Origin: Oscillospiraceae bacterium
GTDB lineage: Bacteria > Bacillota > Clostridia > Oscillospirales > Acutalibacteraceae
DNA length: 55,222 bases
Reading direction: 5' to 3'
Assembly: GCA_015066045.1 (NCBI GenBank)
Contig: SVPD01000012.1
Coordinates: 1-55,222, forward strand
The notes below the pieces were generated by a model that made no database searches, had not been told where the DNA came from, and worked only from the letters and a program-made list of their open reading frames with translations. Positions within the stretch are counted from its first letter, which is position 1. Every line of letters starts with the position of its first letter. Both the position numbers and the translations under genes were made by a program. This document shows, piece after piece, positions 43,236 to 55,222 of the stretch.

Positions 43236-43386
43236 AAGATACTTTATTTTGGTCATGCAGCAGTGGGTTCTGTGCGACAGTACACTGTGAACCATGTCAG
43301 GCGGGGAACCGAGCAGCATTAAGCAATTCGTCTGTGCGACACAGGTCAGCCTGCTGCTGTATGACCAAGAAAAAGTGTCTTTTTTT
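43236..43386 (+). ncRNA. ffs: Signal recognition particle RNA (4.5S/SRP, small bacterial type)
   Basis: The conserved apical domain is clear: GTCAGGCGGGGAACCGAGCA with the asymmetric loop and GGAA-type tetraloop that bind Ffh. The ends pair over a long helix (GGTCATGCAGCAG at 43251 with CTGCTGTATGACC ending 43366), extended outward by AAGATACTTTATTTT and its partner, which ends in T7 as terminator. No Alu domain is seen. SRP RNA ahead of dnaX is conserved in Firmicutes. Confidence 0.9.
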
Positions 43387-47137: not shown

Positions 47138-47485
47138 GGGGATGAAAGGATTTCGACGGGGGTTTTGAAGCACGATAAGCGGGTAGCGCTGTGGCAATCG
47201 CTTTAAAAGGTCACACATTTAAAAATAACTGACAACAATACAGTTTTAAAGGCTGCTTAAGCGGCCCGTCTTGGCTGAGAGTACTGCGGCTCAGCTAAAG
47301 GCGTCGATCAGCAGTGAACGTGTACGGCAGAGCATCCTCGTATGCCGTCACGCATCAGAGGATACCGAAGCCTTAAGCCTGTCATTCGGCGTGAAGCTGA
47401 GGGAATGCTAAAAGACTGACTGCACCCGGAGAAAGTTGTGTGAATGGATTTTCGGACGCGGTTTCGATTACCGCCATCTCCACCA
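47138..47485 (+). ncRNA. ssrA: Transfer-messenger RNA (tmRNA)
   Basis: A 348 nt one-piece tmRNA. The acceptor stem GGGGATG pairs with CATCTCC, and an encoded ACCA ends at 47485. The tRNA-like T-arm is at the 3' end (GGTTTCGATTACC), and GGATTTCGACGGGG at the 5' end is typical. By comparison with the Bacillus tmRNA (resume codon after ATAACT), the tag starts at GAC 47231 and reads DNNTVLKAA, stop at 47258-47260; with the charged Ala the full tag would be ADNNTVLKAA. It lies 66 bases after smpB. Confidence 0.95.
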
Positions 47486-52880: not shown

Positions 52881-54854
52881 TTATTTAATCTTTACGTTCT
52901 TTACAGAACTCCAGGCACCGTAGATTTTCTTGCCGTCAACTGTCTTATAGGCTCTGACCTTGAAGTAATATTTCTTGCCCTTCTTAAGCTTTTTGATTGT
53001 AGTCTTTTTGGTTTTTGCCTTTTTGATTGTAGCGGTCTTGGTGGTTTTCTTAGTGAATTTCTTAGAGGTGGAATATACTACCTCATAGCCCGTAGCTCCG
53101 CTGACAGTCTTCCATGTGACTGTCGCCTGCTTGCTGCCTGCAGTTACCTTGGAAAGGGTAGTCTTTGCGGGTACTATTTCGAAGGTGAGCTTTTTCGTGC
53201 CGCTGTATTTACCCTTGAAGGTTACGGTTACCGTATATTTACCGGGATTCTTTCTTCCGCTTGAATATTTTACGGTGTAATCCGTACCGTTCTTAAGAGT
53301 CTTACCCTTACTGTCCTTTATGGTTACGGTGGGCTTTTTGGCTTTACCGTTATAGGTATAGGAGGTAGCGGAGAGCTTGATTGACTTCGGGTAGTAAATA
53401 GTGGTTGTAGATTTTACAGTACCGCAGACAGAGCATTTGGTTACCGTTTTGCCGTTTTTGGTAAGAGTGGCTTTTGTTGTGGCGCTTTTGTAGGTATGAT
53501 TAATCTTTGCAATTGCCGTCACACTTGTTTTTGCTTTGCAGCCGTTTCTTGTGCAGTGTTTGCTCTTTGAACCTTCTGATGAACAGGTTGCTTTTTTATC
53601 AATGGTATAAACAGAGGCGTATGAATGTGGAGCATAGTGTCGGTAATATATTCTTGAGTCGATAAGATTATTATTCTCAAAATCAATATTGACCGCTTTC
53701 CACTGCTCGTCTGTCCCACCGAAAAGAATCTCATCAAGCTTCACACAGGAATCAAAAGCTCCAAAATCTATACTCGTTACACTCTCAGGAATTATTACAC
53801 TTGAAAGATTGTCACAATCAAAAAATGTATACCTATCTATAACTGTAACACCTTCAGGTATTGTTATACTTATAAGACTATCACATTCAGAAAAAGCATA
53901 TTGTCCTATCACCGTCACACCGGTAGGTATTGTAACGTTTGCGAGACTTTTACACTGATAAAAGGTCAAATGAGATATAGCCTTTAAATTTTTACCCATT
54001 GTTATATTTCTTAGGTTTGTGCAATATTGAAATGCTCCGTCACCTATTACAGTTATGCTGTCGGGAATGGTTATATTTATCAAGCTCTTACAATTAGAAA
54101 AAGTATAAACACCCATATTTGCAACACTGCTGGGGATTGCGATATTTTTTAAACTTGTGCAATTACAAAAAGCTCTGTCACCTAATGTTATAACACTATC
54201 AGGAATCATAACATCTGTTAAACTTTTGCAATTGTTAAAAGCATCACTACCTATAGCAGTTACGCCGTTACCTATTGTAAGATTTTTAAGATAGGTACAT
54301 CCGGAAAAAGCATCGTCACCTATGCTTGTTACACTATCAGGAATTCTAATATCTATGATAGAGCAACCGGAAAAGGCACTATCAGATATAGTTTTCACAC
54401 CATTTCCTATTGTGGCCTTTGTCAAGCCTTCACAAGAATAGAAAGATTCCTCGCCTATACTTACTACCGAATCAGGAATCGTAACACTCACGAGATTTAT
54501 GCAACTATAAAATGCTGCGTTTCCAATTTTTGTTACAGTATCAGGAATTGTTGCATTTGAAAGAGAGCACCCGGCAAAAGCTCCAGCACCAATACTTGTC
54601 ACACCTTCTTCGATAACTACAGTTTTTATATCATTATTACAAAAAAAGGGTGAAGTAAAATTATATATAGAATAGTCATTCATATCACCGCTGCCGCCTA
54701 TAACAAGTTCATCTGTTGTACTGTCATATTCCCAATAAACATTTTCACCACACTGACCCGTAGCATCTAATGCACTTGCCGAAAAAGCAAAATATACCAT
54801 AGCCGTCATAACAACAGCTATAAGCAAAAAGATTTTCTTGAAAGTAGTTTTCAT
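52881..54854 (-). CDS. BspA-type leucine-rich repeat surface protein with Fn3 domain
   Basis: A 657 aa secreted protein. A signal peptide (about 1-28) and a short beta region precede roughly 14 tandem 23-residue LRR_5 repeats (about 55-395) of the form SVTSIGxxAFxxCxxLxxxTIP. A Cys/His-rich spacer with CSxxGSKSKHC and KCSVC pairs follows, then an MBG-like beta domain (about 485-560) and a C-terminal Fn3-like domain (about 565-657) very rich in Lys/Thr. No LPxTG or transmembrane anchor is seen, so it is probably released or held by charge. BspA-like proteins mediate adhesion. RBS AAGGAGG; long structured leader. Confidence 0.9.
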   Translation of the reverse strand: MKTTFKKIFLLIAVVMTAMVYFAFSASALDATGQCGENVYWEYDSTTDELVIGGSGDMNDYSIYNFTSPFFCNNDIKTVVIEEGVTSIGAGAFAGCSLSNATIPDTVTKIGNAAFYSCINLVSVTIPDSVVSIGEESFYSCEGLTKATIGNGVKTISDSAFSGCSIIDIRIPDSVTSIGDDAFSGCTYLKNLTIGNGVTAIGSDAFNNCKSLTDVMIPDSVITLGDRAFCNCTSLKNIAIPSSVANMGVYTFSNCKSLINITIPDSITVIGDGAFQYCTNLRNITMGKNLKAISHLTFYQCKSLANVTIPTGVTVIGQYAFSECDSLISITIPEGVTVIDRYTFFDCDNLSSVIIPESVTSIDFGAFDSCVKLDEILFGGTDEQWKAVNIDFENNNLIDSRIYYRHYAPHSYASVYTIDKKATCSSEGSKSKHCTRNGCKAKTSVTAIAKINHTYKSATTKATLTKNGKTVTKCSVCGTVKSTTTIYYPKSIKLSATSYTYNGKAKKPTVTIKDSKGKTLKNGTDYTVKYSSGRKNPGKYTVTVTFKGKYSGTKKLTFEIVPAKTTLSKVTAGSKQATVTWKTVSGATGYEVVYSTSKKFTKKTTKTATIKKAKTKKTTIKKLKKGKKYYFKVRAYKTVDGKKIYGAWSSVKNVKIK

Positions 54855-54880
54855 AACAATTCCTCCTTAAATATAAAAAG

Positions 54881-55020
54881 TGCGCCATAGAGACGCACCG
54901 AAAAATGCATCTCATTTGCTGCGACACAAATTAAACAAATATCAAATTACGGATATAGTTAAATAAGAGAATGCACTTTTACCTAGTTATTCTCCGTATT
55001 TGATATTTAATTTATGTCGC
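54881..55020 (-). promoter_or_regulatory. Candidate attenuator/riboswitch-like leader of the LRR gene
   Basis: In the minus direction: arm A (55020-54993) and arm B (54954-54922) form a long hairpin with small bulges. Its loop contains segment 1 (AAAAGTGCATTCTC, 54980-54967). Segment 2 (GAGATGCATTTTT, 54914-54902) can pair with segment 1 as a pseudoknot. Alternatively its 5' part GAGATGCA can pair with segment 3 (TGCGTCTC, 54898-54891). Segment 3 overlaps the 5' arm of a terminator-like stem GTGCG/CGCAC (54899-54895 with 54885-54881) followed by TTTTT. AAGGAGG of the LRR gene follows at once. These are mutually exclusive structures. No known RNA family is recognised. Confidence 0.5.
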
Positions 55021-55064
55021 AAGAATAATTTACCACAACCGAGCAGAAAAAGCAAGAGAAAAAG

Positions 55065-55091
55065 AAAAAAACAGCCTACTTTCGTAGACTG
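55065..55091 (-). terminator. Terminator of the rRNA operon
   Basis: CAGTCTAC/GTAGGCTG stem with a GAAA loop followed by T7 in the minus direction, about 70 bases after the 23S 3' end. The spacer has the TTTGTTCAGTTTTGAAGG motif common at Firmicutes rRNA processing sites, and no 5S gene. Confidence 0.85.
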
Positions 55092-55162
55092 TCTGATGTA
55101 CCTTCAAAACTGAACAAAGATTAAGTAAAAGAGGAAGTAGTTGTACTTGAACCAAGGAATAT

Positions 55163-55222
55163 GGTCAAGCCCTCGACCTATTAGTATTGCCTAGCTGAAT
55201 GCATCACTGCACTTACACATGC
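55163..55222 (-). rRNA. rrl: 23S ribosomal RNA, 3' end only
   Basis: The reverse complement ends AGGCAATACTAATAGGTCGA followed by GGGCTTGACC, the conserved 3' terminus of Firmicutes 23S rRNA. The rest lies beyond the window. Transcription runs towards the LRR gene. Confidence 0.93.

Follow-up and report, generated by a model that had tools for sequence, protein, structure and literature searches.

A candidate strand-exchange transcription attenuator upstream of surface-protein and other genes in Clostridia

Transcription attenuation by strand exchange is the best reading of the leader of a surface-protein gene in the genome of an Oscillospiraceae bacterium; the leader is probably a riboswitch-like sensor of the orphan kind. 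From the comparison with related sequences, we put the probability at roughly 80% that promoter and leader form a cassette which controls the downstream gene by premature termination of transcription. The leader lies on the minus strand of the stretch analyzed (the window, 55,222 nt of contig SVPD01000012.1, assembly GCA_015066045.1), between the 3' end of a 23S rRNA gene and a gene for a leucine-rich-repeat (LRR) protein of the BspA type. An earlier note on this DNA had proposed that four segments pair in overlapping ways (1:2, 2:3, 3:4) as in an attenuating riboswitch. The promoter, a further segment 0 and further copies are additions to that account.

All segments of the earlier note were found in the sequence at the places it gave. 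Segment 1 (AAAAGTGCATTCTC) and segment 2 (GAGATGCATTTTT) form 13 pairs with one bulged U and one G-U pair, segment 2 and segment 3 (GTGCGTCTC) form 8 pairs including one G-U, and the 3:4 stem is followed by TTTTT just 5' of the Shine-Dalgarno site. The location of the element (54881..55020) was right as well, except that the element ends at 54875 instead of 54881. Four segment pairs are possible in this leader, namely 0:1, 1:2, 2:3, and 3:4. The minimum free energy (MFE) of the strand was −62.1 kcal/mol against a shuffle mean of −39.15 kcal/mol (z −5.96, 0/200 shuffles as good). This fold draws 10 pairs for 2:3 and a different apical fold in place of 0:1, which is weak in the window copy (−5.1 kcal/mol). 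The parts of the locus are collected in Table 1. The rRNA match (LSU_rRNA_bacteria, L001:1792-1853, 5' cut) had an E value of 2.6e-6 and 30.3 bits, below the gathering score of 50.

Table 1. Features of the leader locus in the window (all on the minus strand)
Feature	Position	Strand	Basis or remark
23S rRNA 3' end, cut by contig end	55161..55222	(-)	Upstream neighbor; LSU_rRNA_bacteria match
Terminator-like hairpin and T-run past the rRNA gene	55065..55092	(-)	Read in sequence
Promoter	55027..55055	(-)	Sequence: -35 TTGCTT 55055-55050, 17-nt spacer, extended -10 TGG-TAAATT, hexamer 55032-55027, ending 6 nt ahead of the hairpin
P1 5' arm	54994..55020	(-)	Contains conserved [AC]AUA motif, here AAUA 55007-55004
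Segment 0 GAGAATAACT	54985..54994	(-)	Alternative partner for segment 1 within the hairpin; 0:1 coevolution
Conserved GGU, apical loop	54981..54983	(-)	GGT immediately ahead of segment 1 in 124/179 unique elements
Segment 1 AAAAGTGCATTCTC	54967..54980	(-)	Sequence; 1:2 pairing in A1 alignment
Apical internal loop, unpaired 3' side TTATTTAACTATAT	54953..54966	(-)	Sequence; alike by eye in genus relatives
P1 3' arm, GTGTCGC at its end	54921..54952	(-)	Sequence, MFE fold, P1a covariation
Segment 2 GAGATGCATTTTT	54901..54913	(-)	Partner of segment 1 or segment 3
Segment 3 GGTGCGTCTC	54890..54899	(-)	Antiterminator with segment 2; terminator with segment 4
Segment 4 and U-run, intrinsic terminator	54875..54886	(-)	Sequence (GGCGCAC 54886-54880, then TTTTT 54879-54875); 3:4 compensatory change
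Shine-Dalgarno AAGGAGG	54862..54868	(-)	Sequence
Downstream gene, BspA-type LRR protein with fn3 domain, 657 aa	52881..54854	(-)	ORF (start ATG at 54854) and Pfam (LRR_5 E 3.3e-105, fn3 E 8.2e-7)

Covariation in relatives supported the proposed attenuation logic by compensatory change. Two covariance models were used, R1 from 33 elements and R2 from 123 elements. The genus alignment A1 started from 38 script picks and kept 33 elements once four false picks and a near duplicate of the window copy had been removed. RNAalifold on 33 elements selected 1:2 and 3:4 unprompted. In the A1 pair counts, 98.1% of cells were paired for 1:2 (both sides changed in 1 of 13 pairs), 91.7% for 3:4, and 85.2% for P1a (both sides changed in 6 of 10). 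When 106 elements were aligned by R2, P1a was paired in 99.2% of cells, and all 10 of its pairs had changed on both sides. The 2:3 pairing was supported by the segment-swap tests below but not by these counts: it was paired in 86.0% of A1 cells and showed no covariation there, 134/500 shuffles reaching its score and 151/500 its percentage paired.

In the swap test, the pairing of matched segments is compared with that of segments exchanged between elements. Among 29 representatives below 70% identity, obtained by thinning 123 elements to 112 distinct ones and then to 29, the z scores were −8.3 for 0:1, −5.9 for 1:2, −6.7 for 2:3, and −10.8 for 3:4, with 0/2000 permutations as good for each, while the controls 1:3, 1:4, 2:4, 0:2, and 0:3 ranged from −0.7 to +1.8. 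With 12 representatives below 65% identity, thinned from 106, the values were −5.6, −4.7, −4.6, and −6.3, respectively, and −8.5 for P1a, and two non-adjacent controls were weakly negative (1:3 z −2.4, 2:4 z −2.3). Since the swap-test and R2 alignments were fitted to P1a and 3:4, these results lean toward P1a and 3:4; 0:1, 1:2, and 2:3 were part of no model used for alignment. One collection of elements drew on 98 sources, with 19 further loci and loci overlapping others set aside, and a later search combined 60 newly added loci from order and class with a selection of those used before. Compensation could also be seen by eye, for example in L051, where segment 1 AAAAACACTGACTT(C) faces segment 2 GAAGTTTGTGTTTTT, and in L122, where AAAAGGTGTTTCTC faces GAGACTCACTTTTT. 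These results indicate that adjacent segments coevolve and that non-adjacent ones do not, or barely. Sequence comparison establishes the position of the promoter, the hairpin P1 and the coevolution of all four alternative pairings.

The promoter belongs to the conserved unit. Where enough upstream sequence was available, the -10 hexamer ended exactly 6 nt 5' of the hairpin in 145 of 178 elements; a TG-extended -10 was present in 161 of them and the best spacer was 17 nt in 152. As this spacing is fixed relative to P1, the RNA should start at or near the P1 base. In the 5' arm of P1, [AC]AUA occurred in 85% of 179 unique elements compared to 35% in shuffled stretches, and GGT stood directly 5' of segment 1 in 124 of the 179. 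Both [AC]AUA and GGU are candidates for the sensing site. The elements combine an aptamer-like conserved structure (P1a covariation) and conserved bases outside helices ([AC]AUA, GGT), as expected of a riboswitch, with the parts of an attenuator: an intrinsic terminator that lies 3' of the promoter and 5' of the start codon, and a competing antiterminator and anti-antiterminator (2:3 and 1:2, which coevolve, 2:3 being unsupported by the A1 pair counts).

The GGT also bears on ribosome-mediated attenuation through a short ORF that starts at an AUG or GUG in segment 1. An ATG, GTG or TTG is found there in 151 of the 179 unique elements, and the preceding GGT would suit such a start. The remaining 28, however, have no start codon (GGT 11, ACG 5, ATA 4, AGT 4, ACA 2, AGG 1, GGC 1), the length of the ORF is not conserved (62 are open to the end of the terminator, other common lengths being 4 to 27 codons), and A or G at that position is also allowed by pairing with U. 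With a start codon that is common yet not universal and an unconserved ORF, the leader-peptide attenuator was rejected as a very improbable reading. A leader that acts without a specific signal, as a constitutive or kinetic attenuator or as a 5' hairpin setting mRNA stability, is unlikely. Hairpins at the 5' end can protect mRNA, and the promoter spacing lets P1 begin at the presumed 5' end, but an unregulated terminator would need neither a coevolving chain of four mutually exclusive helices nor conserved motifs outside itself.

For the strand-exchange attenuator we propose the following course. Transcription would start at or beside the first base of the long hairpin P1, which carries [AC]AUA and would be capped by the apical hairpin 0:1 with its GGUAAAA-type loop. 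In the ON state, 0:1 and the antiterminator 2:3 would form, and RNA polymerase would read into the gene. In the OFF state, segment 1 would quit segment 0 and pair with segment 2 as a pseudoknot, and segment 3 would be freed for the terminator 3:4. We infer switching of this kind in the cell, with P1 and the apical hairpin as the sensor and with this direction of control. The median energies of 0:1 plus 2:3 and of 1:2 plus 3:4 were −20.8 and −25.3 kcal/mol, the pseudoknot cost not counted; the median difference between the states, from summed helix energies before any such cost, was 4.4 kcal/mol in favor of OFF. With its two states this close in energy, the switch looks poised. The sequence UUUUUCG at the end of segment 2 (54899-54905 in the window) is conserved. 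It resembles a polymerase pause site, and a pause there could allow time for 1:2 to form. The apical loop strand may resemble boxA.

The genes behind the leaders were picked by script rather than from annotation. Among 123 elements, 97 were followed by a same-strand ORF within 450 nt, 22 by another element within 500 nt, and four by neither, three of these four lying at a contig end. A second, overlapping set of 106 elements comprised 80 before an ORF, 20 before an element, and six before neither. The distance from terminator to start codon had a median of 25 nt and was at most 30 nt in 111 of 177 cases, which pool the two overlapping sets and count some genes twice. For 126 proteins whose start was within 150 nt of the terminator, at most the first 300 aa were searched. 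The 25 of 52 matched Pfam families shown included LRR_5 (22 proteins), AMP-binding (7), and DUF6273 (4), as well as YAcAr (SLOG), DNA_processg_A, metallophosphatase, copper amine oxidase N-terminal, and zinc ribbon with three each. The LRR adhesin HupY/LrrG model of NCBIfam matched 21 of the 126, not necessarily above its cut-off. A crude test of N-terminal hydrophobicity was positive for 77 of the 126 proteins compared to 26 of 83 other ORFs.

By these sequence criteria, the downstream genes are varied and enriched for secreted proteins. The earlier note had suggested an adhesin under ligand-gated attenuation; the BspA-type assignment of the window gene stands, while a role limited to adhesins is too narrow, as 22 of the 126 proteins match LRR_5 and the rest are varied. 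No metabolic theme was seen among the 126 proteins. A link to defense genes was discarded: PADLOC returned 18 families with at most three of the 126 members each, and one strong match (PDC-S29, E 2.9e-75). An AMP-binding family with a TGYPSIDKPW-like N terminus recurs downstream in several genomes (L120, L123, L158, L164, L172, which is the L237 locus, L180, and L241, there TGFPSIDKPW).

Since the genes behind the leaders are diverse and many of them encode surface proteins, our leading guess for the effector of this putative orphan riboswitch is a molecule that reports the state of the cell rather than a pathway product; that it is a small molecule we consider an even bet. The same attenuator could instead be under the control of an RNA-binding protein, of an RNA acting in trans or of the elongation complex, which we regard as rather unlikely. 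The heterogeneity of the downstream genes would agree with such gating, and the conserved [AC]AUA and the GGU ahead of segment 1 could be protein sites. The length of P1 between its conserved parts is, by eye, highly variable, which makes a rigid pocket joining both internal loops unlikely and would likewise suit a protein or RNA. Three known families of antiterminator proteins do not fit as universal partners, judging from 15 genomes. The LicT/BglG RNA-binding domain CAT_RBD was found in 0/15 genomes, and LoaP in 0/15 over its curated cut-off of 125 bits, below which 14/15 genomes had one place each, probably NusG. ANTAR was found in 8/15, namely six element-bearing genomes and the near relatives G023 and G031 without a detected element, and was not found in the element-bearing genomes G000 (the own genome), G008, G005, G657, G794, G846, and G945.

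Cyclic di-GMP is unlikely as the signal, since GGDEF was not matched in six element-bearing genomes (the own genome G000, G008, G005, G794, G842, and G862), all drafts of 94-98% completeness, the own genome 97.9%; seven other element-bearing genomes do contain GGDEF. The c-di-GMP-II riboswitch is a pseudoknotted sensor. In Paraclostridium and relatives, it occurs in tandem copies 5' of surface-anchor-protein genes; most of its doublets and triplets precede such a gene, doublet and triplet arrangements of riboswitches being known, and tandem riboswitches are reported to sharpen the response (PMC9481103). Our leader resembles it in its predicted pseudoknot and its tandem copies before surface-protein genes, and its tandem units may sharpen the response in the same way. 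It differs in having no Rfam match above threshold and in the missing GGDEF of the six genomes above.

Other known systems share parts of the design. In the E. coli trp leader, the helices 1:2, 2:3, and 3:4 are mutually exclusive and 3:4 is the terminator. The present leader follows this scheme but has no conserved leader peptide, adds the fifth segment 0 and precedes varied genes, and carries its segment 1 in the loop of a long 5' hairpin, which makes 1:2 a pseudoknot. The leaders of type III toxin-antitoxin systems (ToxIN) also place a pseudoknot RNA and a terminator 5' of a gene. Unlike them, our leader showed no short-repeat array, and no ToxN-type family was among the 25 shown of 52 Pfam families from the 126 downstream proteins. 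With other riboswitch classes and orphan candidates (Rfam 15, PMC11109978, and PMC8632094), it shares the 5' leader with competing terminator and antiterminator. Unlike other riboswitch classes, it reaches no Rfam family threshold, has no metabolic gene theme and carries an extended -10 promoter in 161/178 elements, at the same distance in 145.

The Rfam check suggested in the earlier note was run, and no Rfam 15 family reached its threshold at the elements searched. Over the whole window, only tmRNA and SRP RNA appeared at gathering. Relaxed searches (L001, L008, and L009 to E 5, seven further loci to E 1) gave weak matches to the elements with E of at least 0.42, far below gathering. No description of the leader was found in a literature search whose scope excluded bioRxiv preprints and most subscription papers. 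Thousands of candidates are reported in PMC8040213, and an unnamed entry for the leader among them is possible.

When the element was used to search its own genome, two further full-length matches (73-75% identity) and fragments came up, and R2 matched six other places. Around the full-length matches, two tandem pairs were located on C33 and C40, 5' of small genes that look SLOG-like; a Pfam scan of one of these small genes matched no family. On reading, the other copies have different stem sequences that still pair. These copies speak to the reading of the palindrome as a mobile DNA repeat of the MITE or REP type or as an operator bound by a protein; a DNA repeat at unrelated sites was a refutation that the earlier note had named. 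Many copies, a long palindrome and tandem placement are what such a repeat would give. But the stem sequence varies among copies with pairing kept, no second near-identical palindrome was reported in the own genome, and a promoter at fixed spacing lies 5' and a gene 3'; we consider this reading hardly tenable.

The attenuator-like leader is spread far beyond this genome. In the genus, BLAST matched 25/34 genomes and R1 29/34 (both E ≤ 0.01), leaving 5/34 without an R1 match. In the family draw, R1 matched 105/300 genomes and 54/135 genera (E ≤ 1e-3), and 195/300 genomes had no match. At E ≤ 1e-5, R2 matched 97/295 genomes of the order draw, 89 of these outside the own family, and 96/391 of the class draw, 93 of these outside the own order; 295/391 of the class draw had no match. 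In the phylum draw, which doubles as a negative control, only the own genome matched (1/299, E ≤ 1e-5). Copy numbers in searches of more than 40 genomes are lower bounds, 7 to 10 candidates being scored per genome. Nine genomes chosen for their richness contained 25, 10, 17, 13, 14, 9, 10, 14, and 27 matches (E ≤ 1e-4, laxer filters), the weakest of which may be false. Among named genomes, a pattern scan picked up 28 stretches; all came from metagenome-assembled genomes, and 13 had a ruminant host in the title. Their labels included Clostridia, Oscillospiraceae, Ruminococcaceae, and Ruminococcus as well as two Candidatus Borkfalkia, a taxon that NCBI assigns to Christensenellales.

A competing-helix attenuator is a known kind of device. 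The leader family, its five-segment chain, the fixed promoter and the spread over Clostridia appear new. Our broadest proposal, to which we give slightly less than even odds, is an undescribed RNA sensor that extends across the class Clostridia, with as many as 27 copies detected in one genome. Through it, one common signal would set the surface and accessory proteome by strand exchange among five segments, and complete units of promoter, sensor and terminator would often stand in tandem arrays. If a single ligand served every copy, the leader would be one of the largest orphan riboswitch classes known from gut bacteria. Between roughly one quarter and one third of the family, order and class genomes drawn contain the leader, often in many copies, and Rfam lacks it; such spread would mean a common gut-Clostridia signal, so far unnamed, that acts through RNA. 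The alignments and the covariance model make this signal searchable: in multicopy strains, read-through of the copies should respond together to a change in the signal, and a single purified leader could serve in ligand screens.

The largest arrays comprised four leader matches each, in L051 (3130-4074) and L167 (887-1666), on the minus strand. Each stands 5' of one small gene, and L051 has a weak fifth match of 36 bits. At L008:1746-1847 and L009:742-801, both on the minus strand, tandem leaders are separated by short truncated copies of the downstream gene's start, the pattern that joint duplication of promoter, leader and gene start would leave. An origin from phages or plasmids was rejected, one exact pattern giving 0 matches in viral_contigs and one element as query 0 matches in plasmids. 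The same one-element query matched two unverified fecal ‘Bacteriophage’ records, MT835845.1 (L283), which looks chromosomal from its Clp-ATPase-like fragment and YicC-like ORF, and MT837627.1 (L284), which on ORF reading carries a recombinase-like ORF. The leaders in the window (rRNA at 55161-55222) and in L129 (1788-1966) are both near rRNA or tRNA genes, and the window also carries a tmRNA gene (47138-47485) and a small SRP RNA gene (43261-43359).
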